Positions 3,588 to 29,752 of a DNA stretch of 64,000 nt are shown piece after piece. The DNA is taken from assembly GCA_029378245.1 (NCBI GenBank), contig JARKIF010000004.1:806001-870000 (forward strand), given 5' to 3'. The notes below the pieces were generated by a model, which ran no database searches, was not told the origin of the DNA, and saw only the letters and a list, made by a program, of their open reading frames with translations. How positions within the stretch are numbered: position 1 is the first letter of the stretch; the number at the start of each line of letters is the position of its first letter. The translations under genes were made by a program, and so were the position numbers. The stretch comes from Roridomyces roridus. Its lineage: Eukaryota; Basidiomycota; Agaricomycetes; Agaricales; Mycenaceae.

Positions 3588-4001
3588 TGCCGAAAGAGAG
3601 GTGATGAAGAGAAACGGAAAGAAAGAAATGATGATCAATTGATCCTGGAGCATTGCCACTGATTTTGAACCTCGACATCTCTATTGCAGATCAACTCGAT
3701 TCTTCAAATAGTTTCCAGTGCATCCTATATCATTACTCCCACGAACCGGGAGATCAACAGTACGTCCGGAGCATCGCCGTCGAAAATACAATCGCAACCG
3801 AAGCGGAGGCGCTCTCTTGAGAAGACCCGGATGGATTTATGCAGCCACGATGACTCGGGAGAGGTTGCAGTAGGAGAGCCGGCTACTGTCGGAGCTTGGA
3901 CTCTAGATGGTTGCCAAGCAAGGCTTCACATACATATACCCAAGCTCCAGGAGCGATGAACGGTAACTCTTCCTTTTCATTTGACGCCGCGGAGTGCCTC
4001 G
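3588..4001. other. Intergenic, divergent promoter between BTB and membrane-protein genes
   Basis: No ORF with family support. A CACATACATATACCC tract about 70 bp upstream of the ATG at 4002 resembles the TATA-like stretch (GTATATATTTCC) in front of the paralogue at 5286, so both probably share a core-promoter layout. Confidence 0.4.
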
Positions 4002-6295: not shown

Positions 6296-6690
6296 TTGAG
6301 TCGCTATGGACATTTGGACAATATTTGTAAAGGAGAAAATGCAAAGGCTAAAATTTTCAACCAAGTGGCAAGTGTTGAGTGCACCAGCCGATATTCAACC
6401 AAAGTTGCTTCGGACCATGATTATGGACTTGGTTGAAACAAGGAGCAGTCAAATTCAACAGCGTAACAACCGACTCTCACAATAAAACCCCGCATCTCGC
6501 TCAATTCCGATCCAATTCTGATAAAATCGAGTTCAATGGGACGCCCTGAGGTGAGACTACCTCCTGCAAGACCGACAGCTCCGGTGTGGTGTATCGGTAA
6601 CATAGGTGCGCCAGCACCTGGGGCAAAGTTTTTACTTGTTTTTTTTGATGGATTAGATATGATTCTGATCAAAATCAATTGATCGATCAC
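6296..6690. other. Gene-free stretch, AT-rich
   Basis: Downstream sequence of the membrane protein gene. No supportable coding frame or element boundary was seen before the short-repeat region begins near 6,700. Confidence 0.4.
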
Positions 6691-6694
6691 GTCA

Positions 6695-11549: not shown

Positions 11550-14500
11550 ATGGTTCTCCAATCCAGAACCGGCGCCACCACCGACCGTGAACGCCTTGCG
11601 CGTCGCGTCAACGACAACCCCGAACTCGTCAAAGTCTTCACCAACGGCCTCGAGGGCACCTATCACTTCAAGATGTTGACCATTCCAACCCTACAACAAC
11701 ACGACAACGTCCGTAACAAGTGGCGTGGTTTTGTCGAATACAAGAATGACCTGAACGCCGAGAATGGTAACACCGACAACGACCTCCAGCCCGAGATCGA
11801 CAGAGGAATCAAGCTACCGTCCGAGGGTGTGTGATTGACGCTCTCGCATCCATCTCCTCTCATTTTCACTGCAGGGGTATGCAAGGAATTCGTTACCTAC
11901 TTGGGCAACTCCCTCAAGGGCCTGCTTGACGACTACGCCAGCCGTCGCACCGTGCGCCTCTACGTGTCGACTTTCTTTGCTTGCTGGCGTCGTTATGCTG
12001 GCGTCCATATCCCCAAAGAGCTCCGCATGCAGGTCGACGCGTACATCTCGTCCCCCGAGTTCATCCAGACCACACCCGTCACCCGCAACATCCGCGAGAA
12101 ACCCATCGCGAGCGAGGCAGACTTTGACGACACTTGCCGTCAGGTTTGGAACGACACCAACATTTTCCGGCTACATCGCTCCAAGGTCCAGTTCATTGCC
12201 ATCAATGCGATTGGGTGCCTCACCGGCGAGCGTGTCGGCGCCATCATCGAGAGCTCTTGCTACCGCAAGTCGGGCGAGACGCTGGACTGGAAGGACATTG
12301 GCATCCATATCGTCCCCAACCCCGACGACCCCAGTCGACCCTTTGTCCTCCTCTCTCTCCGCTTTCGGAACACGAAAGCGCACCGCGGAGATCCCCAGTA
12401 TGAAAAGACACTGTGGGTTCTCATGGAGCCCGTGGGCTCTCGCGCGACATGCCTAGTCACCCTCATTCTCTACCTCGCTCTCGCCGACGGCGTTTTCGAG
12501 GACGGCGTTGAGACCATCGAGCAGATTGTGTGCCCCAAGGTGCCTCCCACCGAAAAGTACACCCTGCGCTTCAAGAAGGAGGCCCTCAAAAAGCACGTCT
12601 TCCGGTCGGAGGAGATGAATGAGGCTGGGATCTGGGTTACTTCAGAGACCAAGGCGCTCTCGGCGGGAACGCACAACGACCATCTTCGCCGAGTTTCCAT
12701 GTTTTGCGGCTTCACGAGTACGTACCCTTGCTTCGTCGCCTTGCATTCGCTCATTGGTCCTAGTTAACATCACCATGCACAACTGGCGACGCGGCTCCGG
12801 TAATCGGTTCAGCAAGGTCATGGACAGCCTCGATCGCGATGCTCTCCTGAGTCATACGTTCAACTCAAACATGTTCCGCAATGCGTATCAAGCCCGGGAT
12901 CTGGTCCACGATCTTGGAGGCATTCTGCACGACCGCCCAGCGAACCAAGCGGGCGTCAACGTGATTCGGGTACGCACGCCGATCCGCTTCCTTGCTTACT
13001 TTCAGCTGATCCCACTCAGTCCGCGACGGGCATGAAAAAAGTAACTGGTCTTCCCGTCAAGCTCGACGTCGCGGAGCGCGCCGCAATTGAAGCGGAACCC
13101 GAGCTTGTCGCCATGATGGCGGACCTCGACAAGGTACCCTTGTCTTTTGATATTCAGCGCTCTCATGCTCACCTTGTCTCTAGATCAGGTCCGACATTGC
13201 CGATCTCGTCTCGACTAGCAAGATCACGGAAGACGAAGACGTTTTGGACGACCTGACGCGCACCCTCGAAGCTAAACGCAAGGCCCGCAGCCAACTTCAA
13301 TCAAAATATTATGGCATCGTCGCCTCGGAAGTACGCGTCAGGCTCAAGGCCAAGCAAGTCCAGTGGATCGACGGTCACGCTCGGCGTCAGCTCAACGGAG
13401 AGGTGCGCAATCGAGTCTCCCAGTAATTTTTACATCTCATTCGTCCAACAGCCCGTCCCGCCTTCGCTTATTCCCGACCGTACCCGCGAGTCGGTGGCGC
13501 CGAGAGCAGCACGCGTGGTCGGCTCGGATCTTCAAGTGTCGACAACGTCGTTCGTCTCCAAGATCGAGCTTGTCGACCCTATCAACAGGCTCTGCGACGC
13601 CCTGTATCGCTACGCCGAGGACGATCTTGCGGAAGAGGTCTGCGGTGCGGTCAGTGCCTTGTTGGGAACCCCAGACCGCTTGTTTCCGAAATGTTACGTC
13701 GGTGAATCACCCACCGCAGAGGCAAAGTGTCCCGTTTGCAAGATCGATTGCGGGTATGTTTTGTCCCTATGCGCGTTCCTGCTCTCATCCTCGTCGTCTA
13801 GTCCCCAGGCCTTCAGCAAGGGATCGTCGCAGACTGTCGGCTCGCATATTCATCGTTGCCTCCAACGCGCCCAACAGGAAGAAGCCCAACGCCTAACCGA
13901 ACAAGATTTCGAGCACCAGCATTGCCAATGGGCAGGTTGCAGGAATAGACGGTTCAAGACGCGCGAGGCGTTCGTGGAGCACATGCAGGAACACGGCATC
14001 TGGCTCCTTCTGCCTACGACGCCCGAAATCCCCCACCGGTCCTGCCAGATGCTCGACGAAGATGGCGAGATCTGTGGGGAGGAAGACTCGGAAGATTGGT
14101 ACAAACACTTCGGCCAAGTCCACGGGATGAATATTCGCGATCAAGTCGAGATCCACTTCTGTGCCCAGACGAGTCAATGGCAAGTCTCTTTGATCGTCTC
14201 GCTTTACTAGCTCACTCATTTTTTTTTCAGGTTCGTCGACACCGCTGGTGACGGACTAGCCTGGGAGGATCATAACTGGCAACTTTTCGACAACCACTAT
14301 GCGCCATTCAGCAAGCGCCTCGAAAATTCGTCGGTCGATTTCACCCCAATTGGTGTGGTTTTCTCGGTAGCGAAGCAAAAGCCCACCATCGATTACGCCA
14401 CCGGCAGCGACTATCAGGGCAAGTTACCCGAATTCAGCGGCGACGTGCGCTACGGCGTCGCAACCAAGCCCCATCGTTGCCCGTGGTGCATCTTCGCCGT

Positions 14501-16301
14501 CGACGAGTCAATGCCGATTGAGGAGCGCATGCGTCAGTTCATCACCAACAAGGTGTACGCGGATCACATTGGTGTCCACGTCCACGAGCTCGACCAACAC
14601 GATGACGAGGAGCAGCTCTGCCCTGTACCGTCCTGTGGGACGCACAAATTTTCAAAGCACGACCTCAAATACCACCTCGTCACTTTCCACCGCGTACCCG
14701 TCATGGGCACCTCCCACGCAATCAGTTGCCGTCGCCTATTTCTCCCCGTTCCTCCCGATGAAATGGACGTTGACGACGAACCGACCGCCACCCGACGGAT
14801 GGTCATGTGCGATGCTCGCTCCGAACGCATCACGAAAGACAAGCAGGCCATCAGCGGGCACTGCTACGGTTGTAGTCGGATCAAGGCGGACATTGGCAAG
14901 CACATTGAAGGGACCAGCAGCTGCCGCCAGACGAATCGGTACCAGCTCGTTGTTCAGGGCGTGCGCACGGGCGAAACCTTGAATTGGGATCTTTCTTTGG
15001 TCAGTCTATCAACTTTGAGAAAATCGGCTGACGCTAGTGATGTTCAGGGCCGGGCTGGGCCTAAAAGCCCGGGCTTGGGCTGGGCTTTGGCGGGCTTAGG
15101 CTTGACATTTCCCGAGCCCGAGCCCGAGCCCGCATCAAGCCCGGCCCAAGCCTCAAGCCCGGGCTCGAGCCTGGGCTTGGTACAAGTTTTTTTCTTCTAC
15201 TAGGAGACTTGCTTAAAGAGTGGGTGTAAATGTATCTCTTGCATTGTCTGTGGCTGATTCAACCTGTATTAAAAGATAGAGGCTCAATCAGCCAAAACAT
15301 ACACTCTTCCCGTGGGCGGAGTCATGCCGGCAGAAGCCGAAGCCTGATCTTGGAGCAGATCAGAGAATATTCTGAATATGGGTGAGTCAACCCACCTATT
15401 CGGCAGCAAATGACATTCGGCAAGTGATAACCCGGCGCCGGAGAGCTTGCCGAGCACCAGTGATTCGGCCTGCCTGATACACAGCCAAGCCCGGGCCTGG
15501 CGGGCTTCGGCGGGCCTGAGATTTCCCAAGCCCGAGCCCTGGGCCCTGTCAAGCCTGATGTCGGGCCGGGCTGGGCTTGATGAAGCCCGGGCCGGGCTTG
15601 GTCGGGCTTTCGGGCTCAAGCCCGGCCCTGAACATCACTAGCTGACGCTCTTCAGACCGCGGAACCCGTGTCCACGAGCAAAAGTAACAAGCCACATGTG
15701 TGCGGAGGCGCGTGTCGACGTCAATACGAAGATATTAGTGTTCATTATCTCGACAAGACGACCAAGTGCAAACCCACATTCTTTCGCATGGCACTACCTC
15801 GTACCAAGGACGGCAACGGCAAGTGGAAAAAGAATTTTGGGCCGCCAATCGACATCAAGGAGTGGATCGAGGCAAGTATGCCCTTTTTATCCGCTACAAT
15901 ATGCTCATGCGCTCGCTTTAGAAACGAAACAACCCCGATCGCGGTGAGAGTGCGAGGCGGACTGAATCTCGCGGAGAGAGTTCTTCCAAGCGCCCTCGTT
16001 CCCAGGCTCCTCCTCAGTCCGAGAATCGCCCGCCAAGCACGGAACCGGATCGCGGGGAAGGTTCTTCCAAACGTCCTCGTACCGAACCCACGCAAACCGT
16101 ACGTCTTGATTCTCTTCTTATCCCATCTCATCATTTGTGCAGCAATACTGTTGCGACGGTTGCGCCCGAGAATACGTCGACATCGATGATCTTTCAAAGC
16201 ACTTCTCCCGCGTCACCAAGTCGGATTGCATTGCCAAAAAGTTTCGCGTTCGCAAAGCTTCGGGAGGATGGAGTCGGGCAAAAGACTGGGCAGGACGGTA
16301 G
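11550..16301 (+). CDS. DUF3435/Crypton-type tyrosine recombinase with C-terminal zinc fingers
   Basis: Eleven exons: 11550-11826, 11875-12717, 12764-12969, 13020-13133, 13184-13402, 13452-13753, 13802-14179, 14231-14999, 15656-15871, 15922-16098, 16143-16301; about 1,219 aa with no internal stop. The catalytic core looks complete: an Arg in LTGERVGAII (about R212), the H-x-x-R box MHNWRRGSGN (about H379, R382) and a Tyr in FRNAYQARD (about Y415). The C-terminal half has Cys/His clusters: KCPVCKIDC, CQWAGC...H...H, CPWC, CPVPSC...H...H and CCDGC. These are typical of DUF3435 proteins, which include the captains of Starship elements in Pezizomycotina. Two introns (14180-14230 and 15872-15921) need GC donors (GCAAGT); the GT alternatives give stops. 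The eighth intron carries a MITE. It probably mobilises or once mobilised DNA; element ends were not found. Confidence 0.85.
15035..15640. mobile_element. hAT-like MITE (606 bp) inside an intron of the recombinase gene
   Basis: Perfect 22-bp terminal inverted repeats start TAGTGATGTTCAGGGCCGGG. The element is flanked by an 8-bp direct repeat, GCTGACGC, at 15027-15034 and 15641-15648. Subterminal regions are packed with GGGCTTGGGC / GCCCGGGC words. The 8-bp duplication and TAGTG ends fit the hAT superfamily. It has no coding capacity, so it is non-autonomous. Removing the element and one target copy leaves a 42-nt intron with intact GT and AG ends, so the host frame is unaffected. Confidence 0.92.
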
Positions 16302-16341
16302 GACTGGCACTGTAATGATGTAACGGAGCTTGAATGATATC

Positions 16342-16437
16342 TCCTAATTGGTGTAGTGGTTAACATTGGTGCTTTTCACGAAACTTGACTGTATCTTGAC
16401 TGCGCACTAGCCAGGGGTTCGATTCCCCTATTGGGAA
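16342..16437 (+). tRNA. tRNA-Glu (anticodon TTC) with a ~24-nt intron
   Basis: The acceptor stem TCCTAAT pairs with ATTGGGA. The A box is TGGTGTAGTGG and the B box GGTTCGATTCC. The anticodon arm is GGTGC-TTTTCA, then an intron of about 24 nt one base 3' of the anticodon (the canonical position), then C-GCACT. The T stem is AGGGG/CCCCT. A T5 tract at 16442-16446 serves as Pol III terminator. The variable loop is short (4 nt). Confidence 0.85.
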
Positions 16438-16545
16438 TACCTTTTTCCACGAGAACGTGTCCACGTTTTTGCTCATTTTACCGTTCTACAATATCCGGTA
16501 TCCCGAGGATGCTCTTCCGCCTGTGGGTTACAGCGACATAAGAGC

Positions 16546-16612
16546 TGTTAATTGGTGGCTGCTCTTGTCACGTAATCGCACTTGCGCGGGGTTCGACTCC
16601 CCGCACCGGAGG
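16546..16612 (+). pseudogene. tRNA-Glu relic, 5' end missing
   Basis: The 3' half GCACTTGCGCGGGG-TTCGACT-CCCCGCACCGGAG is intact with a T-run after it. Upstream only GTTAATTGGTG and a scrambled anticodon arm (CTCTTGTCACG) remain. No acceptor 5' strand and no full A box are present. Confidence 0.7.
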
Positions 16613-17396
16613 TTTTTGTACTTTTAGTGTTCCCCCTGCCCTGTCCCTGAACATCCATATATCCGGAACTGCAGAGTTCAGGCACGTAAGTGGGCACCGT
16701 GGACCACACACCCATGATGTCAAGTTGACCCACCGTGGCCCATAACGGCCTCCTCGCCTAGCCTTGATTGACAGTTACCGCCTTGCCTCGGTGAATCTCG
16801 GACACAAGTAGACAGGGAACAGCATTCGCAGATCCCTTTTAGCGACCCGTCATATTCGCAGATCCTACGGAATATTCACGGAATGCATCTAGACTCGGAG
16901 ACCCGAACCCCGAGTCAACCATTGATCATGATGCGCGGGTCGGTCCCGTCGGAACGCGGAAGCGTGTATAATTGTTTCAAAAATACAGTAGGTAAGAGAC
17001 GAGGATTAGGTCTACAGAACTTGGCTCGTATGGTACATGATTGCGATTCCAGGAGGTGAACAAGAGCGGATTATGCACAAGGAATAATAGCACGGGCTGG
17101 CGGGATCAACCGCCAGAATAATTTTATCGCACGCGGATGGGAGCGGCGCGCTCAGGAAGATGGCGATGGAGTTAGCGGCGGAGGAGAGTCGCCGTCTGTA
17201 CTCGGATGTGTTCGCATGTGCCGCCGCATATTCGATTGGACATTGAACCGCCGACCGCAATTTGGGTGTGTACAGCGGAAAGCTGGGGAGAGTTTAGATG
17301 GGTGCGATGAAATGTGAACAAGGATGACTCACGCATGGCGCCCGTATGTGTGTTGGTGTGAGTGCGCAGGCTGCTGGGCCGCGTGAAAGTTCGTGG
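16613..17396. other. Gene-free stretch between tRNA relics
   Basis: No ORF with domain support. The segment 16438-16540 resembles 22437-22520 (both follow tRNA-Glu 3' ends and share CTCATTTTACCG and TCTACAAT), so this stretch belongs to the same duplicated block. Confidence 0.4.
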
Positions 17397-17444
17397 TCAC
17401 GTGACAGATCGCACTAGCCAAGGGTTCGATTCCCTTATTGGGAA
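17397..17444 (+). pseudogene. tRNA-Glu 3'-half relic
   Basis: CGCACTAGCCAAGGG-TTCGATT-CCCTTATTGGGAA matches the 3' half of the complete tRNA-Glu at 16342 with two compensatory T-stem changes. A T6 tract follows. The 5' half is absent apart from TCACG. Confidence 0.7.
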
Positions 17445-17489
17445 CACTTTTTTCTATCCTCGCGGCCCATAGTCATCTTGCGCAATAAT

Positions 17490-18560
17490 TTTGCATCCTG
17501 GTGGTGATGTGCACTGCCGGATCGCGGTTCGCTTCAACCCGTTGCCGAAAATTCAACATCTGCTGCAGCAGACCGCATTCCTCACTGTCTCCAAGTCCAA
17601 CGACTTTGGAGAACCTACGCCGTCGAACCATCTCAGATCACACTTCGATTCCTGCCCGGAATTCCGACCGAGCACGATATAGACCACTTTGAAATAGATA
17701 AATAGAATTCAGCCCAGCCTTCTAGCCCTCCTTCTCATTCTGCATCTTCACCGCGCACCAAAACGTACCGTGCCTGGCCCGTTTCGCTGCAACATTGCTT
17801 GCACCATCGTCCGGACCAGGTGGCCTACACAGAGCTGAACAAATGTATCTGAATATATACAAGCACGTACTGATTCCACCAGAATGCGGGGTGCCACGGC
17901 CACTTTGAATCGCGTTTCGATACTCTGGCAAAGAAGGATGAATGAATGAGTCCTACGCCCCATGAGACAGGCATACCTGGCCTCATCGCGTGTCCAGTCC
18001 CAGAACCGGGGGAGCTTTACAGCGCGTCTGGGAGCACGCTCATCGTGAACCGAATAAAAGCTAGGGTCTTTCGAATGAGAATGTAGCGTTCGAATGCAGG
18101 AGACGTACCCTCCATGTTCACGGCGGTCTCTGTGGTTCCAATAAAATGCACTGTGCCTCCGTTCGTCTTTCAATACGAGCAAATCTATGTGGTTCAAACA
18201 TCAGACAGGGCAATTCGAAAAGTAATTCCCATACCTCTGGGAGTCCCGCCGACCGGGTGGGCGAGTACCGTCGAGGCAGAAAGAAGAATCGAGAGTGCGG
18301 TGAGGAACTTCATGTTGGGTGCAAATGAGAAAGTGCAGGACCACATTTATACCCCCTGGTTCACTGCCTTGAACGAGACTATGTCGAGACTGGGCGCCAA
18401 TCGCACGCCTTACAAAGTTTGGACCAACCGCGACAGTGGCGCTTCAAGGCAGTCCAGGTGGATATCATTCCGAGCATCTTTGAGAGTTCGATATGGAGCC
18501 GTCTTGCGAAACAAGCTGGCAGCTGTCTGAGATCCAAACCGGCAGCCCATTGGCATGTCG
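17490..18560. repeat. Segmental duplication, copy 1 (other copy 22,725-23,557 plus 23,941-24,010)
   Basis: Long near-colinear similarity, including the 3' flank (CCCTCCTTCTCATTCTGCATCTTCAC), the body of precursor A against D, and the promoter side (TTTGAGAGTTCGATATGGAG). Copy 2 differs by loss of one precursor exon and gain of a 383-bp MITE. Confidence 0.85.
17722..18313 (-). CDS. Candidate RiPP precursor A: secreted Kex2-repeat protein with aromatic cores
   Basis: Exons 18313-18235, 18184-18109, 18060-17977, 17924-17871 and 17824-17722; all introns are GT-AG, 46-52 nt, and phases agree; 131 aa. The signal peptide MKFLTALSILLSASTVLA is followed by dibasic-delimited segments: RR-HSAFYWNHRD, RR-AVKLPRFWDW, KR-DSKWPWHPAFWW and KR-ARHGTFW. 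An acidic PPGPDDGASN spacer sits before the last KR. This is the layout of dikaritin-type precursors, in which Kex2 releases short cores later oxidised by UstY proteins. Compared with D, a one-base loss after TFW changes the tail. An alternative acceptor two bases on gives another open frame without KR sites and is disfavoured. The product and its bioactivity are unknown. Confidence 0.68.
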
Positions 18561-18659
18561 GTGTTTACCGTTCGGGACGGTGCAGTCGCCGCAGAGTGCC
18601 AATGGAATCCAAGGGTCAATTCGCCGCAGCAAGACATAGAACGAAGATCTCCTTGAGAA

Positions 18660-19139
18660 TTCAGCCGACCTGGTGCTCTTCCTCCCCAGCAGCTCCTTCC
18701 CTACGCAAATTCAACAGCCATTCATCAACAAACAAGAGCCCAAGACCCACTCCTTAAAATTTCCACGTAAAAGGAGGATGCTGAGTTGGGGATCCGCGTT
18801 TCTGCACCCCTTCACCCCCGACCTTGTGCCCTTCCTCGCCAGCACTGTCTTCTCCTTCCCTACGCAAAGTCAACGCCAATTCCTCAACAGATAAGACCCC
18901 AAGACTCACTCATTATTGTTCCACGAAAAAGCAGGATGCGGGGCTGCGGATCCGCCGCGTTTCTCCGCGCCTTTACCCCCGAACTTGTGCCCTTCCTCAC
19001 CAGCACCTTCCTGTTTTTCCCTATGCAAATTCAACGCAAATCAATCAACAAAAGGGAACCCGAGACCCACTCATTATTACTCCACCAAAAGCCGGGGTGC
19101 CCGCGTTGCTCTATCCCTTCGCCGTTTTCACCGTCCGCT
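18660..19139 (-). repeat. Tandem ~155-bp repeat: duplicated core-encoding exons of precursor B
   Basis: Exons 4, 5 and 6 of precursor B and their introns are related copies (intron donors GTGGGT or GTGAGT, acceptors GCATAG or GCGTAG). A decayed fourth unit follows at 18,660-18,750: it keeps the acceptor GCGTAG and an acidic EGAAGEEEHQVG reading but has lost the KR-core part. Copy number has evidently changed by whole-exon duplication and loss. Confidence 0.8.
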
Positions 19140-19504
19140 CTGAAACCAAAGAGTTTAGTAAATAAGCGGCGTACTCAGGGGGAAAACGCACTTGTCGACG
19201 GGTTTCCACCAAAAGCCTAGATGCTGTAGACGTTTCGAAAGTTGGCTACTGCAGTTGAATAGAGGGGTGAGATTTGAGGTGGGTGTGGACTAACTCGTCA
19301 GAGTCGGGCTTCCAGAAGAACCCGTGGTAGGGGACGGTCCTCTTGGCGTGGCTTTTGTCCACGTCGACGGGCTCGACGTTGCGGCCTGAAAGTCGTTTGA
19401 GTCCGGGCGAATCTGAAAGAGGGTGGGGACTCACTGGTGTCGATGGGATGGGCGATGACCCAGGAGGCAGAGAGGGCAAGGGAGAGCGTGGTGTAGAATT
19501 TCAT
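18754..19504 (-). CDS. Candidate RiPP precursor B: five Kex2-delimited aromatic cores, one per exon
   Basis: Exons 19504-19435, 19385-19295, 19248-19192, 19139-19071, 19020-18910 and 18859-18754; introns 46-52 nt; 504 nt coding, 167 aa, no internal stop. Signal peptide MKFYTTLSLALSASWVIA. Each later exon has one processing site and core: AKR-TVPYHGFFWKPD, SKR-LQHLGFWWKP, EQR-GHPGFWWSNN, EKR-GGSAAPHPAFSW and QKR-GSPTQHPPFTWKF. All cores hold F-x-W; acidic Gly/Glu spacers such as EGAGEEGHKFGG separate them. Exons 3-5 begin and end in the same phase, so they can duplicate without frame loss. The promoter faces the broken UstY gene at 20126. It is the best-preserved member of the family. That these cores become cyclic peptides is inference from the UstY neighbourhood. 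Confidence 0.75.
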
Positions 19505-19779
19505 GGTGTGTTACCAGTTGCGTGGATGGGGAGCCTCTTTATACGTTTTGCTTATCTGCAACGTCGAAGCGAGCAGTGCAAGCTATGATCATCTCTGTCC
19601 CGAAGATGATAGGCTGGGCCGACGACCAAAGATGATAGGCTGGAGCCTGGTCGTCGGCCCAGCGTAGAAGTCAAGAAGCGTCTTTTAGCTCTCCGATGCA
19701 TCAGCCGACGCGACAGTGGCACTTCGGGGCGGTGCAAGCCTGATTCATTCGAGGTCCTCGAGGCTGGAACGCAGCGCGA

Positions 19780-20110
19780 AACGTCGAGAATGGAGCGCGC
19801 TTTCGAGGATATGTAGATGGTGAGAGGAAAGAGGAAAGTTTCCAAAAGGAAGTTTCGCCAAACATTCGCAAATCGCCAACTCCTTTCCTCCCACCACGAC
19901 TCCCAAATCTGAAAACCTCGCTCTAGACTCTGCTGCTGTCAAAGTGAAATTAAATCCTTCATCAACTGGACTAATGCCACATCTAATGCTACTGATCGGC
20001 AAACGCAGTGTCGTACCTCAGCTGACCATTGCCGCCTGTCCAAGTGTGCGTGGCCTCGGCCTCTTTCGACGCTGCAATCTCAGACTCCAGTTCCCGCACA
20101 ACCTCTCCTC
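19780..20110. promoter_or_regulatory. Shared divergent promoter block, unit 1 (between precursor B and UstY copy 1)
   Basis: A conserved block (GGAAGTTTCGCCAAACATTCG, then CTCTAGACTCTGC and ATGCTACTGATC) that recurs between precursor and UstY at 22,100-22,370 and upstream of the intact UstY at 24,270-24,450. The minus strand is open in two copies but frame-shifted in the third, so a regulatory role is favoured over coding. Confidence 0.5.
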
Positions 20111-20125
20111 CTCATCACGGCGAAC

Positions 20126-20445
20126 GGAAAATACGAGTGCACTCCATTGCCTAGCGCAGACTCAGAAGCAAAGAAAAGACGCTTCCATCCCTTCCGCGGG
20201 CTACTTTCCGTGTCTCTGCTTCTCAACGTTGCCCTGGCATTGGGCTGGCTCTTGAATTCAACTCGCAGATCCGCTGCATTCGCCGATTATTGTAAGGCAA
20301 CGAATATCAATAGCATGCATCGCATCCAACCCCAGCACCTGCTCATGTCGCCATCGGATACAAGGTCGTCAAATTCCACCGCGGTCTACTCGACTACGTC
20401 CCCCGGGCCTCCATCTTGAAGGCAATCAGGCTTGGGGAAGAGGAA
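20126..20445 (+). pseudogene. UstY (DUF3328) copy 1, start lost and truncated
   Basis: Aligns with the intact copy at 24677 from the first codons (NGKYE, LPSADSEAKKRRF) through the TM segment (LLSVSLLLNVALALGWLL) and across the first intron to YKVVKFHRGL. The ATG has become ACG. Homology stops at about 20,440, where the sequence joins a minus-strand precursor fragment, so both HXXHC motifs are missing. Confidence 0.85.
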
Positions 20446-20800
20446 TGCTGGTTTCTATCTCCAAATGGTCTCAGATATCTTGCCTTGTCTGCAACTGTGG
20501 AGCTTATCGGCTGCCACTTTGAATCGCGTGTCGACTGGGATACTCTGCGCAAGATGGGTGAATGAGTGAGTCCTACGCCCATCAGACACGTACCTGTGCT
20601 CGTCGTGTTTCCAGTCCCAAAACGGGGCGTGCTCTGGTGCGCGTCTGGAAGCGCTTTCATCGTGAACTCAATACATCCCAGAATGTAGCACTCGAATGCA
20701 GGAGAGGACGTCGTGCTCGCCGCGGTCGCTTTGGTTCAAATAAGATGCGATGTACCTCCGTTCGTCTTTCGATAAGAGCGAATCTATCATGCATGCGGCT
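20446..20800 (-). pseudogene. Precursor-family relic E (no signal-peptide exon)
   Basis: Minus-strand pieces match the internal exons of precursors A and C: LSKDERRYIASYLNQ, APEHAPFWDWKHDEHR followed by a GTACGT donor, then RVSQSTRDSKWQP. The segment with the repeat core exon has a stop before EHAPFW and no exon 1 lies upstream. It is fused tail-to-tail with the truncated UstY copy 1. Confidence 0.7.
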
Positions 20801-20872
20801 CAAAGCCCAGAGTGCCCAGAAGTTGAGAAAAAAGAAAATATTATTCATTGAACTCAAGTTGTTGATCGAGCC

Positions 20873-21213
20873 CTAGTCTGCTGTGCCGTAGGCGTCCCAA
20901 AAAGGAGCGTGATTCTGAACGCGTTTCTCCACCCCTTCGCTGCCTTCACCGTCCGCGCTGAATTCAAAGAGTTTAGTGAATAAGCGGTGCACTAAGGGGG
21001 AAACGCACTTGTCGAGTTTAGGTTTCCCCCAGAGATGCTGCAAGCGTTTCGAAAGTTGGCTACGGGGGTTGAAAGGATGAGATTTAAGGTGGGTGTGGAC
21101 TAACTCGGCAGAGTCTGGCTTCCAGAAGAATCCCTGGTAGGGGATGGTTTTCTTGTCGTGGCTTGCGTCCGCGTCGACGCGAAGAGGACGGCTGAGTTCT
21201 ATTTCAAAGTGGT
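20873..21213 (-). pseudogene. Orphan 3' exons of a B-type precursor, or extra last exons of precursor C
   Basis: Three spliceable exons end at 21105, 21059-21009 and 20957-20873, with introns 21060-21104 and 20958-21008 placed exactly as in precursor B. They read DKK-TIPYQGFFWKPDS, then SKR-LQHLWGKPKLD, then a GEGSEGVEKR spacer and KR-VQNHAPFWDAYGTAD with a stop. No signal-peptide exon belongs to them alone. They could be reached from precursor C only by skipping its stop at 21214, for example by a GT-AG splice within the last C exon. Either a partial duplicate or alternative 3' exons. Confidence 0.6.
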
Positions 21214-21869
21214 CTAATATATCCTGCCTTGTCTGCAGCTGCTCCTCCTCTGTCTCTGCATTGTGGAGGGCGTTGGCTGCCACTTTGATTCCCGTTTCGA
21301 TACTTTGCGCAAGACGGGTGAATGAGTGAGTCCTACGCTTATCAGACACGTACCTAGCCTGTGCTCATCGCGTTTCCAGTCCCAGAACGGGGCGTGCGCC
21401 GGTGCGCGTCTGGGAGCGCTTCCATCGTGGCCCCAATACAGCTCAGTGTGACCCTGCTCGCGCTTCGGAACATGCGCGTCGTCCTGCGCGTCGGCGGGCA
21501 TCTCGGAGTCAGCCATCCTGGGCAACGAAGAAAAAAATTGAGAATGTAGCACTCGAATGCAGGAGAGAACCTTACACATGCCCGTCGTGCTCGCGGCGGT
21601 CCCTGTGGTTCAAAGGTTGGCTACGGGAGTTGAATACGGGGGTGAGATTTGAGATGAGTGTGGACTAACTCGTCAGAATCGGGCTTCCAGACATGGTAGG
21701 GGACGGTCTTCTTGTCGTGGCTTGCGTCCACGTCGACGGGCTCGATGGCGGGACCTAAAGTTGTTTGAGCCCGGGCGTATCTAAAGGGTGACCACTCACT
21801 GGTATCAATCGGATGAGCGAGGACCCAGGAGACAGAGAGCGCAATGGAGAGCGCGGTGTAGAATTTCAT
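21214..21869 (-). CDS. Candidate RiPP precursor C: chimeric Kex2-repeat secreted protein
   Basis: Exons 21869-21800, 21754-21670, 21620-21576, 21517-21354 and 21302-21214; 453 nt, 150 aa. The signal peptide MKFYTALSIALSVSWVLA and first core (DKK-TVPYHVWKPDS) are B-like. The following exons resemble A: NHRDRREHDG, then PKR-EQGHTELYWGHDG, APRR-APAHAPFWDWKR and SKR-ESKWQP. The 3' end drifts into a basic tail (QRQRRSSCRQG) without a core and stops at 21214. Intron 3 needs donor GTAAGG at 21575. The mix of B-type 5' and A-type 3' exons suggests unequal crossing-over between family members. Phases agree, but the tail is doubtful. Confidence 0.55.
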
Positions 21870-22099
21870 GGCGTTGTAGGGTGGATGTAGATGGGGGCAG
21901 TCTTTTTATACGTTCTGCTTAGTATCTCCAACATCGAAGCGAGCAGCCCGAGTGATGATCTTTCTGTAGCGTCGTCGGCCAGCATAGAAATCGCTCCCCG
22001 TATCGACCGGCGCGGCAGTGGCGCTTCCGGCAGTGCAAGCCTCATTTGTTCCAAGTCCTGGACTTCGAGAATGGAGCGCACGCTTTCGAGAGCAGATGG

Positions 22100-22370
22100 T
22101 GAGAGTGGGAGGAACTTGAAAGTGAGGAAAGTCTCCAAAAGGAAGTTCGCCAAACATTCGCAAATTGCAACGCCTTTCCTTCCACCACAACACACAAATT
22201 CTGAAACCCTTGCTCTAGACTCTGCGGCTGTCAGACCGAGATCATCATCTGGACTAGTAATGGCACAACCAATGCTACTGATCTTCAAACGCACACAGCC
22301 TGTCCAACTTGAAGTGCCTTTCTCGGTTCGCTCGAATCATCCCAGTCCCCGCACAACCTCTCCTCTTCAT
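22100..22370. promoter_or_regulatory. Shared divergent promoter block, unit 2
   Basis: Same conserved block as at 19,780-20,110, here between precursor C and the truncated UstY start. It has several indels relative to the other two copies. Confidence 0.45.
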
Positions 22371-22371
22371 C

Positions 22372-22400
22372 ATGGTCATGATCTCCATCTGAATCTGCTT
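22372..22400 (+). pseudogene. UstY copy 3, cut off just after the start codon
   Basis: The UstY leader CCCGCACAACCTCTCCTC and ATGGTC are present as in the intact gene, but after a few codons the sequence runs into a tRNA-Glu 3'-half relic at 22401. Only the promoter and first codons survive. Confidence 0.75.
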
Positions 22401-22436
22401 ACGCACTTGCGCGGGGTTCGACTCCCCGCACCGGAA
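22401..22436 (+). pseudogene. tRNA-Glu 3'-half relic at the UstY breakpoint
   Basis: Contains GCGCGGGG-TTCGACT-CCCCGC and ACCGGAA; identical over most of its length to the relic at 16575-16610. A T5 tract follows. It marks the join between the UstY leader and the duplicated flank of precursor D. Confidence 0.75.
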
Positions 22437-22921
22437 TAACCTTTTTGTTCATTTTACCGGTCTACAATCTGGGTGTCCAGAGGATACTCCTCCGGCTGTG
22501 GTTTCCAGCGAGATGTGACGTTTTCATTTGTGGTCAAAACATATTCGCCCACAGGTCCTGTACCATGCTCCATGCCTAATACGTATAATGAGGGCCAAGT
22601 GAGGGCGGACCCACCGAAAGATACAATGCAGGCACTTCATTGCGGAGGTTATGGAGCATCGAAGGATTGTAAGAGAGACCAATGCAGGCATATGGAACCT
22701 GAAAGCTCTGAGCAGGTCTGCCGATAGACCATGCCGGATCGCGGTCAACCCGCTGCCGAAAATTCGACATCTTCCGCGGGCTGTATTGTCTTTCGCTGCC
22801 CCCGAGGACTTTTTGCACGTTCACCGATGAACCATTCTGGATCGCACTTTGATTCCTGCCCGGAATTATATACACCACCTTGGAATAAATAACTAAAATT
22901 CAGCCCTTATAGCCCTCCTTC

Positions 22922-23383
22922 TCATTCTGCATCTTCACTGTGCCACCAAAACGTACCGTGCTCGGCTCGTTTCGCTACAGCATTGCTTGCACTATCGTCC
23001 GAACCAGGTGGCCTGCACAAAGCTAAACAAATGTCTGAATATATACAAGCACGTACTGATTCCACCAGAATGGGGAGTGCCACGGCCACCTTGAATCGCG
23101 TTTCGATACCCTGAACAAAGAAGGGTGAATGAATGAGTCCTACACCCCAGAATGCAGGAGACAACCACATGAGATACCCTCCATGTTCACCGCGGTCTGT
23201 GTGGTTCCAATAAAATGAGCCGCGGTCCCGTTCGCCTCTTGATACGAGCGAATCTATGCGGTTCCAATGTTAGGCCAGTGTTATTCGAACAGCAGGGCCC
23301 TGACCTTTGGGAGTGCCGCCGACCGGGTGGGCGAGTATCATTGAGGCTGAAAGAAGAATCGAAAGCGCGGTGAGAAACTTCAT
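22922..23383 (-). CDS. Candidate RiPP precursor D: short Kex2-repeat secreted protein
   Basis: Exons 23383-23305, 23253-23178, 23110-23057 and 23012-22922; 300 nt, 99 aa, no internal stop. Signal peptide MKFLTALSILLSASMILA. Cores: GSFYWNHTD (its leading RR has mutated, so release there is doubtful), SKR-DSRWPWHSPFWW and AKR-AEHGTFWWHSEDAE with a stop. An acidic PPGSDDSASN spacer precedes the last site. It is the duplicate of precursor A with the exon for the FWDW core deleted, which fuses two introns into one of 67 nt that still splices in frame. Upstream, a MITE sits in its promoter-side flank at 23558. Confidence 0.66.
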
Positions 23384-23557
23384 GTTGGGTACAATTTAAT
23401 ACAAATGAGAAAGTGCAGGTCCACATTTATACTCTCTGGTTCACTGCCTCGAACGAGACTATGTCGAGACTCGGCGCCCATCGCACACCTTAGAAAGTTT
23501 GGTTCGACCTCGACAGTGGCGCTTCAAGGCAGTTCAGGGGAGACATCATTCCGAGTA

Positions 23558-23940
23558 CAGTATTTCAGCACTCCTTTACACAGCAAATCAAAATTCGTGT
23601 TTTCTATCTTAGTGATCCACACTTTGGCGGATCTGTGTATGCAGTCGATGTTTGTAGGCTACTGGCAATGTACTCGAATATTTCCGGCATTTCGCATGGC
23701 CTGCAAGGGTGTAAACCGAGGTGTGTAAAGGAGTGATAGCCCAAAATGGCCGAAATCAGGCACTTTGATGGCAATTTTGCGTCCATTTCCGGGGTGTTTC
23801 TTGAGCCCAAAAGAGCCTAGGGGACCTATATAAGGCATAGATTTATGTATACAAAAGAGTGGGCACAAATTGAGCCAGATGTGGCCGAGTTACAGGGTGT
23901 GTAAAGGAGTGATAGTGTGTAAAGGATGGCTGGAATACTG
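23558..23940. mobile_element. Tc1/mariner-like MITE (383 bp)
   Basis: Imperfect terminal inverted repeats (CAGTATTTCAGCACTCCTTT and CAGTATTCCAGCCATCCTTT) are flanked by TA on both sides. The duplicate locus near precursor A has no insert at the same place (CCGAGCATCTTTGAGAG), which defines the empty site. The word TGTGTAAAGGAGTGATAG recurs near the right end. No ORF of transposase type. Confidence 0.85.
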
Positions 23941-24199
23941 TATGTTTGAGAGTTCGATATGAAGACGTCTTGGGAGACGAGCGGGCAACTGTCTGAGATC
24001 CAGACCCGACTGGCATTTTGGCGTTTGCGATTTGGTTGCAATCGCCGCTGGCAGAGCCAAAGAGTCATGGTACACACGATACTCCGGAATAGATCCGAAT
24101 CTCTGCTACCTCTTGTCGAGAAGCATCTTTTCGCTCCCTGCTCATGGCAGCCGGGGCGACAGTGGCACTTCTGGGCAGTGCATGCATGATTCGTTCGAG

Positions 24200-24676
24200 G
24201 TCCTCGAGGCTGGAGCGCAGCGCGAAACGTCGAGAATGGGGCGCGCTTTGAAGGATATGTATATGGTGAGAGGAAAGAGGAAAGTCTCCAAAAGGAAGTT
24301 TCGCCAAACATTCGCAAATCGCCAACTCCTTCCCTCCCACCACGACTCCCAAATCTGAAAACCTCGCTCTAGACTCTGCTTCTGTCAAAGTGAAATTAAA
24401 TCCTTCATCAACTGGACTAATGCCACATCTAATGCTACTGATCGTCAAACGTAGTGTCGTACCAGGACCCCTGTGGCCATTCAAGCCACCTGTTGGTTGC
24501 CTGTTAGCCATCGTCAAACGTAGTGTCGTACCAGGACCCCTGTGGCCATTCAAGCCACCTGTTGGTTGCCTGTTAGCCACCTGTCCAAGTCCTTTTCTGT
24601 GGGCGTGGCCTCGGCCTCTTTCGACGCTACAATCTCGATTCTCAGACCAGTTCCCGCACAACCTCTCCTCGTCATC
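24200..24676. promoter_or_regulatory. Promoter of the intact UstY gene, with the shared block
   Basis: Contains the conserved block found in the two other precursor/UstY units (GGAAGTTTCGCCAAACATTCG at about 24,294), then a tandem duplication, then the CACAACCTCTCCTCGTCATC leader directly before ATG 24677. Confidence 0.5.
24441..24578. repeat. Exact 69-bp tandem duplication in the UstY promoter
   Basis: Two identical adjacent units, 24441-24509 and 24510-24578, each starting ATCGTCAAACGTAGTG and ending TTGCCTGTTAGCC. The other two UstY copies have a single related segment, so the duplication is recent. Confidence 0.95.
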
Positions 24677-25521
24677 ATGGTCAACGGAAAATACGAATAC
24701 GACCCATTGCCTAGCGCAGACTCGGAAGCAAAGAAAAGACGCTTCGACCTCTTCCGCGTTCTACTCTCCGTGTCTCTACTTCTCAACGTCGGCCTGGCAT
24801 TGGGTTGGATCTTGAATTCGACACGCAGCTCCCCTCAATTCGCTAGCTACTGTGAGACAACGAATTCCAATCGAATGCATCTCATCCAACTCCAGCACCT
24901 GCCCAAGCTGCCATCGGATACAAGGTCGTGAAATTCCACCGCGGTCTACGCGACGATCTTCCCATCTACGAACGCCCTCCCTCCCCTGAAGGCGATCAAG
25001 CTTGGGGATTGCTATACGAATGTATGTGCTGAAGTTGGGTCTGCACATTATTGACTTGTTTCCAGACGCTCTTTCCCGCATTCCAAAGTCCGAGGCCGTC
25101 AAGCTGACGAACAAGACGTGGCCCATCCTCGACGAGCCTGGAAACTATATCATCGCGTTAGACGTCTTCCACCAATTGCACTGTCTGGTGAGCATGAATT
25201 CCGAAACCCCACTCAGTACCCTCAAACAAGAGTTATCAGGACCTCGTTCGGCAGCAACTCGAACTACACCACTCCAACACACGCAACTACACCGGACAGT
25301 CAATGCCTCACCTACGCCACTGCATCGGCGCTATCCGTCAGGCCCTAATGTGCCACGCCGATACGACCCCTATCATTTGGCAATGGTCCGACCGATTGAA
25401 AGAAGCGGAGCAGCTAGACGACATTTTACACAGCTGCAAGGACTTTGACAGGATTCAAGATTGGGCGAGGCAGCGGAGTGTCGGGCTACTGCCTGATTTG
25501 ACTGTCTACCTCGAGGGGTGA
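24677..25521 (+). CDS. UstYa-like DUF3328 oxidase, intact
   Basis: Exons 24677-24851, 24896-25021, 25066-25187 and 25240-25521; 234 aa, all introns GT-AG, 44-52 nt. A short cytosolic N-terminus (KYEYDPLPSADSE) leads to one TM segment (LLSVSLLLNVGLALGWIL). YSPAQAAIGYKVVKFHRG comes next. Both family motifs are present: HQLHC at 136-140 and HLRHC at 165-169, followed by LMCHADTTP. In ustiloxin, asperipin and cyclochlorotine pathways, proteins of this family carry out oxidative cyclisation or hydroxylation of peptide side chains, and the paired HXXHC motifs are essential. Two broken copies (20126, 22372) show it was part of a repeated unit with the secreted repeat genes, so those peptides are the likely substrates. 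Confidence 0.88.
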
Positions 25522-25739
25522 TCCTACGGTTTCAGCGCCACTTGTATGTAATCTGCGGCGAATGGACTGCTTTACTATGGAAACTCTGGAACCTTGAAGA
25601 CTGGACAGCCGCCAACACGCCTTTTTTCGACGTGCTTCTAATGCTGACCGAAATCCCGAGCAGATAGGATGGTGTTTCGTGCCTGACTACTTAGCTTGGA
25701 TAAAAGACCAACGAGCGCCCTCCAGGATTCAGCATCATC

Positions 25740-26856
25740 ATGTCTTCCGACGATGCAGCCATCTTCTCTATGCGCGACATTGCCTTCAACAACATCATCC
25801 TCGAAGCGTTTGCTCATGGCATCTACTCGGTCATCTTCACCCTCGCGCTGTACGCAATGAGTGAGTCTATCGCTTCCCGCCGCGAATCCCGACTTACCCT
25901 TTTTAGTCTTCAAGAAAAAGACCCCCGCTCTCTTCTTCTTGGCTGTCATCACCATGTTCGCTCTCTCCACCATCCAACTGGCCGTCCGTTGGGCGATCGC
26001 TCGGGACGCGTTCATCGTGCACGGTGACAATCCGTTGGACACCGTCGAGGCGTTCATGCAACCCACCTTGGCGCTGAGCGTCCTGTCGGGCAGTGCACTC
26101 GTCGTCAACACTTTCATCGCGGACTGTGTCCTCATCTATCGGTGTCTCGCCGTATGGAACCGCGACTGGCGCGCCTATCATATTCCCGACGCTCTCCACT
26201 GTCGGCGGCGCGGGTCAGTTCCTCTCCTCTTTTCTCAACTTCCGTTAACTTCCACTCGCAGTCCTCGGCGTCCTCACCGTCCACCAAACCGTTACATTCG
26301 TCCAATCCGGCGGCGACCCCAACAGCTTCGTCGACTACGCCCGCCCCTACTTTTGCATGTGCCTGCTCACAACCCTCCTCGCGACATTCCTCATCGTATT
26401 CCGCATCCTCTGGCTCACCCGCGAGGACTCGACCAGAAATGGATCAGCCACAGCCTTCTCGAGCTACCGCGCTGTCATCGAAATGGTCGTCGAATCGGCG
26501 TTTTTGTATTCCGCCACGCTCGCCATCTATATCGCGCTGCTGTATGGGTCCGAGACGGGTAACGCCGATGGGTATGCGCAGGCTCTTTTGATTGACATGA
26601 CGGTATGTACGCTTGGGCATTTGAAGTTCTTTTGAACCTGACCACATCTCGTAGGGCATCGCACCCACCCTGATCGTCGCGCGTGTGTCCTTCGGTCTGG
26701 CTCGTCCAAGCTCGTCCTGGCAGCGGTCTTCCGCCAAGGCTGGTCGCCTCAGGCAACTCGAGCTCGGTCACTGTCGTCCGGAGCGGAATTCAGTTCTCCA
26801 AGAACGAAGACCTCCTCCAGTCCCAAAACACCAATTTCGATGGGCAGTCTGTTTGA
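25740..26856 (+). CDS. Seven-TM Agaricomycete membrane protein, one probable frameshift
   Basis: Exons 25740-25860, 25907-26213, 26262-26602 and 26655-26703 plus 26753-26856 (last intron inferred from frame). Helices are clear: FAHGIYSVIFTLALYAM, LFFLAVITMFALSTIQLAV, VNTFIADCVLIYRCLAVWN, YFCMCLLTTLLATFLIVF and AVIEMVVESAFLYSATLAIY. The family word DNPLDTVEAFMQPTL marks it as one of the expanded uncharacterised Agaricomycete seven-helix proteins. Between WNRDWR and IIFPTLSTVGGA the frame changes by one base at about 26175, so exon 2 is not a multiple of three; either a mutation or a sequence error. The ligand or role is unknown. Confidence 0.7.
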
Positions 26857-26940
26857 GTACTGTACAATATCTTCTTGGTTATTGGTTATCTAGCATCTGT
26901 GTATGTCTTATCTACATATTTATGTGTGCAAGCAATTGGG

Positions 26941-29752
26941 TCAGTAATTGAAATCCTGAATCTGCAACTCGGCATGTGCCTTGCGAACCTCATAATCCCT
27001 CGCCTCCCACCACTGCTTCGCGCACTTTTCCACCTGCGTCTTCTCCCTCTCCTCCTCCTTCATCCTGCGATCCATCTCAGCCTTGGTCGGCACCGCCATC
27101 TTCTTCTTCCGCCTAGTCTCCGCATTCTGCTCCTCCACCGCCTTGAGTTCATACGGCCAGTGCTCCCCACGGCCAAAATCGATGATGCGGAAACTCGGCG
27201 TACGGTCGGAGCGCTCGGCAGGCGGGACACTGAGCGGGCCTGGTTGGCGAAGGATGTTGCGTACGTAGAACGAGTTTTGTGTGAATTCAGCGTGGGGCAG
27301 GCGGAGGGCGAGGGAGAAGCATTCGGATCTGCCTTGGTAATGAGTACGAGTCCGTTGGTAAGCTCTGCATACCTCTCATCTGGAGTGAACTTGTGTGACT
27401 CGATGGGAGACCCACATTCTTCGAGGAGGAGAATCGGGGACTGCTTTTCCCACTCCCTGTAGCTCGCGGTCCTCTGGAATCGTTGCAGCGCAAACTTCTC
27501 ATCTGTCTCCCTCTGCTGCGTTGCTCTCCTCCTCCTTCTCCTCCTCAGCAGAATGGTTCTCCTCCTCCTCTGCAGATAGAACTTCCCCCGCGTCCATCTT
27601 CTTCTTCCTCTCCTCCTCCTTGCGCTTTCGCTCCTGCTCCTTCTTCTCCTCCCTCTCCTTCCTCCTCGCCGCCTTCTTCTCTTCCACATACACCCTCACC
27701 GCCTGCCTCTTCTCCCTCTCCACATCCTCCATCACCGGCACATAGTACCCATAAAACTTGGGCACAACCGCACCCACCGGCACGGGATGGGTAATCGGCG
27801 CCACGAGATTATACCCACACCAATCCTCCTGCAAATGCTTTGGGAAGGCACCGTAGATCTTGCCTTCGTTCTGGAGCAATTGGCGGGCCTCGCTGTTGCT
27901 GAATCCTGTTTTGGCGGCGACGAGGACTTGGCCAGTGGGGGAGCGTCCAGTGAGGGGTGTAGGCAGGAGGAGGGAGGCGCGGTGCACGACGGAGTGGTTG
28001 CCCGTACCAAGGAGCGGGGCGGCTGAGAGGTCGAGGTGCGCGATACGGAGGTTGGATGAGGGGGATTTGGGGAGCTCAGGTTTGGAGCTGGTCGAGACCA
28101 CGGAAGGAAATCCAATCGACGCACACGATTCATCGGTATTAAACCGCGGTCCCTCCTCATCCCTGTCGAAACGCGGCCAGACGCGTTTATACTTCCTCGG
28201 CACGGCCTCCTTCGTCTGCGTCTTCGCAGACTGACCATTACGCCCGTAGTGTCCCAAAGAAGACTGCCCCTGCGGGTCGTTCACGTAGAGAATGTCGGGA
28301 AAGTACGCTGTAGGAATGAATTCTTCGAGTTTCGGGAGTCGATTGTAAATCGGGGGCTGTGAGAGGTCGTCAAAACAAAACAGGAAGCAGTAGGCGGTCA
28401 GACGCACCTCGGGGGAGGGTGGCGGGGCTGGCGTTGGCTTGTGCGTCGGGTCATCCTGTGGCTCGGAAGCTGCCACCGCCGGTGGAGGTACTGAGCAGGC
28501 GCATCATGATCGGCGGACAATGGAAATGATGCCCGACACACCTTTCTCCTGCTCCACACTGGCTGCTTCCAATGAGCACTGGCGCGGGTCTTCAATAAAC
28601 TCTGGACGTACCTCCATCCTTGCCCTCCGTCTTCTCAGCTATCTTCTCTTCTGGCAGCGATAAGGAAGGCAGAAAGGATCGACGGGAAGTATGCAGACGC
28701 ACCTTTTACGTCTCCCTCCTTCGCATCCTTTGCTTTACCTGTAGTCGGATCCGGGCTCTTGTTCTCGCCTTCCTTCGGCCCATCGCCCGCCGCAGTCGGC
28801 CTAGCGGCATCCCACTCGCCGCTCCCCGAAGACCAGCCTCCGGAACTCGCTGCCGTCGACTGCGGGGACTTTGATCCATCGTCTTCTGGAGCAGGAGCAT
28901 CTTCTGCTAGGATGAGTCGACGTTTACGGGAAATGGTGTCCGACGCACTACTAGCGGCATTATCTACGCGGCGTGAGGTAAGATTGGCGCAGAAGATTAT
29001 GAGAGGCGGCTTACCGTTATCCTTCGCGTCCTTTGCAGTGGAAGACGCGTCTACCAAGAAATTGACGCGCTTTTCAATGTTGGAGGTGATGGAAACATAC
29101 CTGGGCGACGCACGGGCCCTGGGACTACGCGAATGGATAAATGCAGCAAACGAGATAAAAGACGCGTACCACCAGTCCCGCATCCGTCTATTCATGCGTC
29201 GTGAGTGCAATTCCTTGCAAAAAAGTGCCGTCACTCGCCAGAAAACTTTGCCTTTGCTTTCCCTTTATCGACATCCATCGGTGCAGCCCACTCTGCCTTC
29301 TTCACCTTGTCCTTCTCCGCTACGGCCTCGACTTGATGACGATGCCCACAATCCTTGTCGATGAAACCAAAGTGTGGATCGTCTTGGAGTTTGATGTGCG
29401 CAGGCAACGTCAGAGCAGGCCAAGGGCGAATCCGACGCGGTGCAGGCTCCATGTAGGGGAATCTTTGGGGGGTTCATCGTCTGCGGGGCTTCGGTGATGG
29501 TTTGAATCATGCTGCGCGTCCAGATAGTCAAGACATTGATTTTGGGGATGCGTTGAATCCTGGTAGATCTTTGTTGAAAAGCGAGATGTTGCAGAGATAA
29601 ATGGGTGGCACGCACCAGAAGAAATCTTCGAGTGAGTGTCCCCAGATGATACCGTTCTCCGTGCGCTGGCCTTTTGGTGGTGGTTTGGGCAGGATGGCAC
29701 CGTCGGGGTCACAGAGCCACTCTTGGTAGACGACGCGTTTACGGTCGGACAT
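26941..29752 (-). CDS. Kinase-like protein of an Agaricomycete-specific family, model incomplete
   Basis: Starts at 29752 with MSDRKRVVYQEWLCDPDG and WGHSLEDFFW, then PAHIKLQDDPHFGFIDKD. A long disordered middle is cut by many introns (for example 28346-28396, 28462-28512). The C-terminal kinase-like lobe shows TGQVLVAAKTGFSNSEAR, a GYNLVAPITHPVPVG strand, SPILLLEECGSPIE and FYVRNILRQPGPLS. FRIIDFGRG near the end resembles the DFG loop. The usual HRD is replaced by the RN of VRNI, so it may be a pseudokinase. The reading frame breaks twice: near 29,440 beside a C6 run, and near 27,510 in a GAG/GAA-rich tract. Exons between 28,930 and 29,250 include possible micro-exons that could not be settled. 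Confidence 0.65.

Follow-up and report, generated by a model that had tools for sequence, protein, structure and literature searches.

Gene content of the locus

The window analysed here is a 64-kb stretch of DNA (positions 806001-870000 of its source contig) from the genome of the mushroom Roridomyces roridus, family Mycenaceae (90.8 Mb in 501 contigs). Its minus strand carries four genes for peptide precursors, named A1, A2, B1 and B2, of which B2 is annotated fused with a headless neighbour, B3. An intact, divergent gene of the UstYa (DUF3328) family adjoins them on the plus strand. A1, A2 and B1 are three neighbouring genes for precursors predicted to be secreted; from their second exon on, every exon encodes one short Trp-centred peptide, here called the core. 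Gene structure, motifs, linkage and duplicated segments are direct observations at this locus. The principal genes are as follows.

17722..18313, minus strand: precursor A1, signal peptide and four core exons (exons 18313-18235, 18184-18109, 18060-17977, 17924-17871 and 17824-17722)
18754..19504, minus strand: precursor B1 (FB45DRAFT_354300), signal peptide and five core exons in six exons (19504-19435, 19385-19295, 19245-19192, 19139-19071, 19020-18910 and 18859-18754)
20873..21181, minus strand: B3, headless B-type exons with GFFWKPD, LWGKP and APFWDAY, annotated as the end of FB45DRAFT_1000023
21182..21869, minus strand: precursor B2, signal peptide and the cores YHVWKPD, TELYWGHDG and APFWDW; 71% identical to the B1 stretch 19234-20007
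22922..23383, minus strand: precursor A2, signal peptide and three core exons (exons 23383-23305, 23253-23169, 23110-23057 and 23012-22922)
24677..25521, plus strand: intact UstYa (DUF3328) gene, FB45DRAFT_899814 (exons 24677-24851, 24896-25021, 25066-25187 and 25240-25521)

For B1, A2 and UstYa, our exons agree with the depositors' gene calls. The B1 model is identical to its public counterpart over 166 amino acids, the A2 model to FB45DRAFT_899809, and the spliced UstYa model to its public protein across all 234 amino acids. A1, with five exons here, corresponds to FB45DRAFT_899806, a partial public model from which our exon 3 is missing; the difference could reflect genuine alternative splicing or a decision made in annotation. 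B2 and B3 are annotated as one protein of 245 amino acids. All 14 precursor introns listed are of the GT-AG type and 44-67 nucleotides (nt) long, with weak donors (GTCAGG, GTGGTT) in two of the three A2 introns. Signal peptides were scored with a permissive home-made measure (a hydrophobic stretch with small residues at -3/-1) used at two cut-offs, 1.9 and 2.3. A1 and A2 both score 2.53; B1, at 1.93, lies above the lower cut-off and below the higher one, and the signal peptide of B2 was judged by eye. An earlier reading of this DNA from its letters (the sequence-only reading) had named signal-peptide-like starts, basic sites, acidic spacers, a list of cores and an intact divergent UstYa gene, and the gene models bear out all of these, including every core on the list.

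One Trp core per exon

Core sequence varies between exons. In order, those of A1 are HSAFYWNH, AVKLPRFWDW, DSKWPWHPAFWWN and ARHGTFWCAV; those of B1 are TVPYHGFFWKPD, LQHLGFWWKP, GHPGFWWSNN, GGSAAPHPAFSWNNN and GSPTQHPPFTWKF; and those of A2 are GSFYWNH, DSRWPWHSPFWWN and AEHGTFWWHS. All 12 core exons of these three genes hold one Trp core each, preceded in 11 of the 12 by KR, RR or QR. The number of dibasic sites is four in B1, five in A1 and eight in B2/B3. Two cores depart from the dibasic rule: the first core of A2 has no dibasic site before it, and one B1 core follows QR. The internal later exons, six of six, are multiples of three with phase-2 borders (84 and 54 nt in A1, 54 nt in A2, and 54, 69 and 111 nt in B1), and the second exons (76, 85 and 91 nt) are not. 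Gain, loss or skipping of such an exon, and with it a core, therefore leaves the reading frame intact, and the exon layout would have a role in core diversification.

Between 17701 and 23400, [KR]R followed by F-x-W within 14 residues occurs eight times on the minus strand and never on the plus strand, compared with a mean of 0.51 and a maximum of 3 in 300 dinucleotide shuffles of the minus strand. The eight occurrences are not independent, because the precursor genes are paralogous. Elsewhere in the window there are 12 further occurrences, and 20 pieces from other UstYa loci of the genome have 0-3 each (both strands). For a closer look at the cores, 18 Trp-holding segments of A1, A2, B1, B2 and B3 were picked by eye at basic sites, with segment ends of our choosing. 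F-W or F-x-W is present in 15 of them. The F-x-W form named by the sequence-only reading holds exactly for 11 of the 18 and fails for the rest. The commonest form is H-x(1-2)-F-(x)-W, found in 12 of the 18 segments; when the letters of each segment are shuffled, 0.59 are expected and none of 20000 rounds gets to 12. In a reduced list of 10 segments, for which we picked a single member of each group of paralogues, eight carry it against 0.36 expected (0/20000). The upstream His before the core Phe is an addition to what the sequence-only reading had described.

A1 and A2 have three cores in common, in which the codons of F and its paired W are kept. Their exons are identical at 263 of 299 positions and two compared introns at 75 of 94 (hand sums). 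Within a precursor, the cores are not near-identical copies: the best 40-residue self match is 8/40 for A1, 16/40 for B2/B3 and 22/40 for B1, compared with 40/40 for a tandem-repeat precursor at another UstYa locus of this genome (L029) and 9/40 for the non-repeat UstYa protein.

The UstYa gene

The UstYa profile (PF11807) matches two exons of the gene, at 25074-25190 and 25243-25476, with 28.2 and 64.4 bits against a cut-off of 25, and the paired HxxHC motifs of the family are present as HQLHC and HLRHC. In 34 aligned proteins chosen from 106 relatives, H136, H139, C140, H165, H205 and C207 are invariant, and H168 and C169 are conserved in at least 90%. Over 20 named species of Mycena are represented among the relatives, together with other Agaricales; ascomycetes contribute a few weaker ones. 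A tree built from 49 selected rows places the protein within a mostly Mycena group of 26 rows (support 89/90, drawn open). The AlphaFold model has a mean predicted local distance difference test (pLDDT) score of 83.5 and a single predicted N-terminal helix, residues 14-50. Among solved structures, none is related by sequence and none clearly by fold, so solved structures offer no guide to the chemistry of the family. A perfect 70-bp tandem duplication lies upstream of the gene, at 24441-24579.

A proposed route to Trp-centred peptides

Our favoured reading, to which we give a probability of roughly 60%, is that a diversified set of precursors and one intact UstYa would together yield short Trp-centred peptides, cut out by Kex2 and oxidised by UstYa. 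The predicted signal peptide would take each precursor into the secretory pathway. The core exons of A1, A2 and B1 each supply one Trp core, usually behind KR, RR or QR and often behind an acidic spacer. UstYa, with its predicted membrane helix and two HxxHC motifs, would oxidise the aromatic core in the endoplasmic reticulum or Golgi. The likeliest outcome would be a ring closed at the Trp side chain, with hydroxylation or desaturation as the alternative. Kex2 and Kex1 would then free the core at its N-side. The Kex2 site is N-terminal to the core, and in B1 an acidic spacer comes after it, so a second peptidase would be needed to trim the C-side. The single whole UstYa left at the locus would serve all of the precursors.

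The oxidation could also stop short of a ring. UstYa might hydroxylate, desaturate or halogenate a residue, reactions that its relatives carry out in cyclochlorotine biosynthesis. This is consistent with there being only one whole UstYa at the locus and no tyrosinase match in the window. Nothing speaks directly against it, but the cores are rich in aromatic pairs suited to a cross-link, and we regard a ring-free product as rather unlikely.

Several observations weigh against Kex2-cut, UstYa-oxidised Trp peptides as the product. Signal-peptide-like ATGs are frequent across the scanned loci, so that the signal-peptide score is weak on its own. Seven of the 18 segments depart from exact F-x-W and six from H-x(1-2)-F-(x)-W, and the first core of A2 would have to be released without a dibasic site. 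The A1/A2 comparison does not demonstrate strong selection on the cores, because one intron (41/44) is as alike as the exons. Tyrosinase (PF00264) has 11 matches in the genome, none of them inside the window, and the 92 of 795 P450 candidates that were scored include no match inside it. Precursor relatives outside R. roridus were absent among 20 and 3562 protein-database candidates, despite the 106 relatives of UstYa. Finally, in the survey of Umemura 2020 (PMC7329392), W occurs in 20.5% of 1758 DUF3328-linked precursors and is no commoner there than in the others (24.5%).

Duplications and relics

Self-comparison of the locus reveals a history of duplication. Stretches of A1 and A2 are 80-82% alike and stretches of B1 and B2 71%, and the remaining pieces are listed below.

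18662..18753, minus strand: relic B1 cassette after the B1 stop, an intron-like stretch with an acidic spacer (repeat 18665-18929 against 18818-19090, 77.7%)
20044..20438, plus strand: UstYa 5' fragment (second copy), 82% to 24599-25008, HxxHC motifs absent
20513..20787, minus strand: A3, headless A-type fragment, 73.6% to 17899-18188
22342..22378, plus strand: UstYa 5'-end remnant of 37 bp, 94.6% to 24647-24683
23554..23943, no strand given: repeat element of ~390 bp splitting the A2 upstream stretch, with six further genome copies at 93-100%
24115..24463 and 19670-20017, no strand given: intergenic stretch common to the divergent units, between B and UstYa, 92.6%

The sequence-only reading had counted two broken UstY genes. 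Self-comparison instead finds the one 5' fragment, with no Pfam match in its frame (19913-20416), and the 37-bp remnant. The intron of the relic B1 cassette matches the preceding intron at 41 of 50 positions. Homology to the A1 upstream region resumes at 23942-24006, right behind the ~390-bp repeat element. These alignments are most simply explained by about three copies of a module A(-) B(-) UstYa(+), two of which would have lost UstYa and the third B.

These remains invite the view that the cluster is mostly a decaying relic of a pathway being lost. The UstYa fragment and remnant, the headless A3 and B3 and the repeat element upstream of A2 all fit such decay, as does a genome search with window positions 16000-28500, in which the further matches are only dispersed pieces, while several other UstYa loci form contig pairs. 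This part of the window may be haplotype-specific or collapsed in the assembly. Against decay, every exon of UstYa, B1 and A2 has an open frame and GT-AG borders, all three are annotated genes, and the UstYa motifs are intact. We consider a dying cluster distinctly improbable.

Other UstYa loci of the genome

The 28 UstYa exon matches in the genome were grouped by us into about 12 loci, with paired contigs counted as haplotypes. Arrays with one repeat per exon are also seen near further UstYa genes in R. roridus. A fixed rule that flags any signal-peptide start lying no more than 500 bp from a short-range repeat picks out 7 of the 12 UstYa loci and none of the 8 control tiles, and five of the seven hold on inspection: the window, L026, L028, L029 and L037. 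Counting exon-wise as well as tandem repeats, six loci (these five and L024) have a repeat-bearing signal-peptide gene nearby. L024 has a 117-nt exon with phase-2 borders in such a gene, with the sites QAR and QRGR rather than KR. L026 (2609-3247, minus strand) has 14-residue repeats (EFAIAEEEPRLEGR) after a signal peptide, with a single Arg instead of a dibasic site, near two UstYa matches; L029 (2156-2777, minus strand) has six near-perfect 27-residue repeats with KR (AEEVDQGNNKWCSEEDGVDGVNCDW), also near two UstYa matches. L028 has a second aromatic array resembling a precursor beside its UstYa gene, at 3572-4580, where RR/KR-CFWNGG precedes exons that begin WYWCAVQETP, with Cys at both ends; this array is partly decayed, with a stop or frame change in some copies. 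L037 has exons with SFNKYRR next to a UstYa match that crosses stops, and L030 an array of three exons of 69, 63 and 63 nt with RRR. Among the pieces compared, F-x-W occurs in number only at the window locus.

Small secreted peptides rich in Cys (MAFKIMFPMLL... QCPPCC) form a family with several copies at L020 (1410-9100), L019 (6600-6900), L022 and L023, beside two other UstYa loci. No dibasic repeats were seen, and the family is perhaps another kind of UstYa partner.

Relation to known peptide systems

Alternatively, Kex2 may process the precursors in the ordinary way to linear secreted peptides that stay unmodified, with UstYa a bystander or acting on something else. Such precursors yield linear, minimally modified peptides in four Agaricomycetes (Vogt 2022, PMC9769878). 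In the 1461 strains surveyed by Umemura 2020, DUF3328 lies beside only 103 of 1680 basidiomycete Kex2-repeat precursors (6.1%), and the authors suggested that cyclisation might hardly occur in basidiomycetes. At the R. roridus locus, in turn, UstYa and the precursors were duplicated as one unit, the His-Phe-Trp motif is far above shuffles, and the difference between UstYa loci and control tiles described above runs against a bystander. We judge linear, unmodified peptides to be an unlikely product. The low 6.1% may partly reflect a blind spot, if short-exon, core-divergent precursors escape tandem-repeat screens.

The Agaricomycete Kex2-processed repeat proteins (KEPs) share with the R. roridus precursors a signal peptide and dibasic-delimited segments. 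KEPs were found via tandem repeats scored by identity to 40-residue seeds (PMC7329392). A KEP-type screen would probably miss A1, because its self match is no better than that of the non-repeat UstYa. By this measure A1 is not repeated and B1 is borderline. The survey also describes a type with W and P (P-3), whose seven members come from Galerina, Psilocybe, Coprinellus and two other genera; four of the seven adjoin DUF3328. Therefore, Trp-containing precursors beside DUF3328 are not new in themselves. UstY-bearing lichen clusters likewise lack repeated cores (PMC12048977), and by analogy non-repeated precursors may be commoner than screens indicate.

The sequence-only reading called the locus dikaritin-type, which stands as an analogy. 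Like the dikaritins ustiloxin, phomopsin, asperipin-2a and victorin, the locus has precursors with a signal peptide (by the permissive score), several cores bounded by Kex2 sites, an aromatic core residue and a neighbouring UstYa/DUF3328 gene, the last with its Pfam match and paired HxxHC motifs. A tyrosinase is not required of every dikaritin, as asperipin illustrates. Ustiloxin and phomopsin do need one (PMC7329392), whereas the window has no tyrosinase match. In known dikaritin products the ring closes at Tyr or, for victorin, at Phe (PMC9233826), whereas the R. roridus cores offer Trp, mostly with an upstream His. In addition, dikaritin precursors hold highly repeated cores (PMC7329392), unlike A1, B1 and B2/B3 with their low self matches. 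The locus would work like a dikaritin locus (cf. PMC9769878, PMC9233826, PMC7329392). We do not claim membership, because highly repeated cores are not found and the product is a prediction.

Amanita cycloamanides (MSDIN) have one core per gene, a prolyl oligopeptidase instead of Kex2, and no known signal peptide or UstYa. They have in common with the proposed peptides that they are mushroom ribosomally synthesised and post-translationally modified peptides, and amatoxins and phallotoxins cross-link the Trp side chain to Cys (PMC9233826). The BURP-domain cyclases of plant burpitides belong to an unrelated copper enzyme family in another kingdom and provide a chemical analogy only. Trp serves as a cross-link partner in burpitides. 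Oxidative side-chain cross-linking of precursor peptides is what they would share with the R. roridus system (PMC12186524).

A broader and more tentative proposal, which we hold to be rather unlikely, is that mushrooms of the Mycena group make UstYa-dependent peptides from one-exon-one-core cassettes. Exon duplication and in-frame skipping would generate a library of H-x-F-x-W cores, and UstYa would cross-link the Trp, possibly to Phe or to the conserved His upstream. Such peptides would be a Trp counterpart of the Tyr-based dikaritins, overlooked by tandem-repeat surveys. The A2/B1-UstYa pair is small enough for a direct test of UstYa action on Trp.

Other features of the window

Beside the locus, a 1.1-kb stretch at 16246-17387 has a 95% copy on contig C113, and ARAGORN places one odd tRNA-like gene at 16342-16437. 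A DUF3435 frame lies at 11835-12764 (84 bits); this family is often found in mobile elements. Two repetitive frames that overlap at 6649-7709 have a high content of Ser, His and Gln and carry recurring HPGH motifs.

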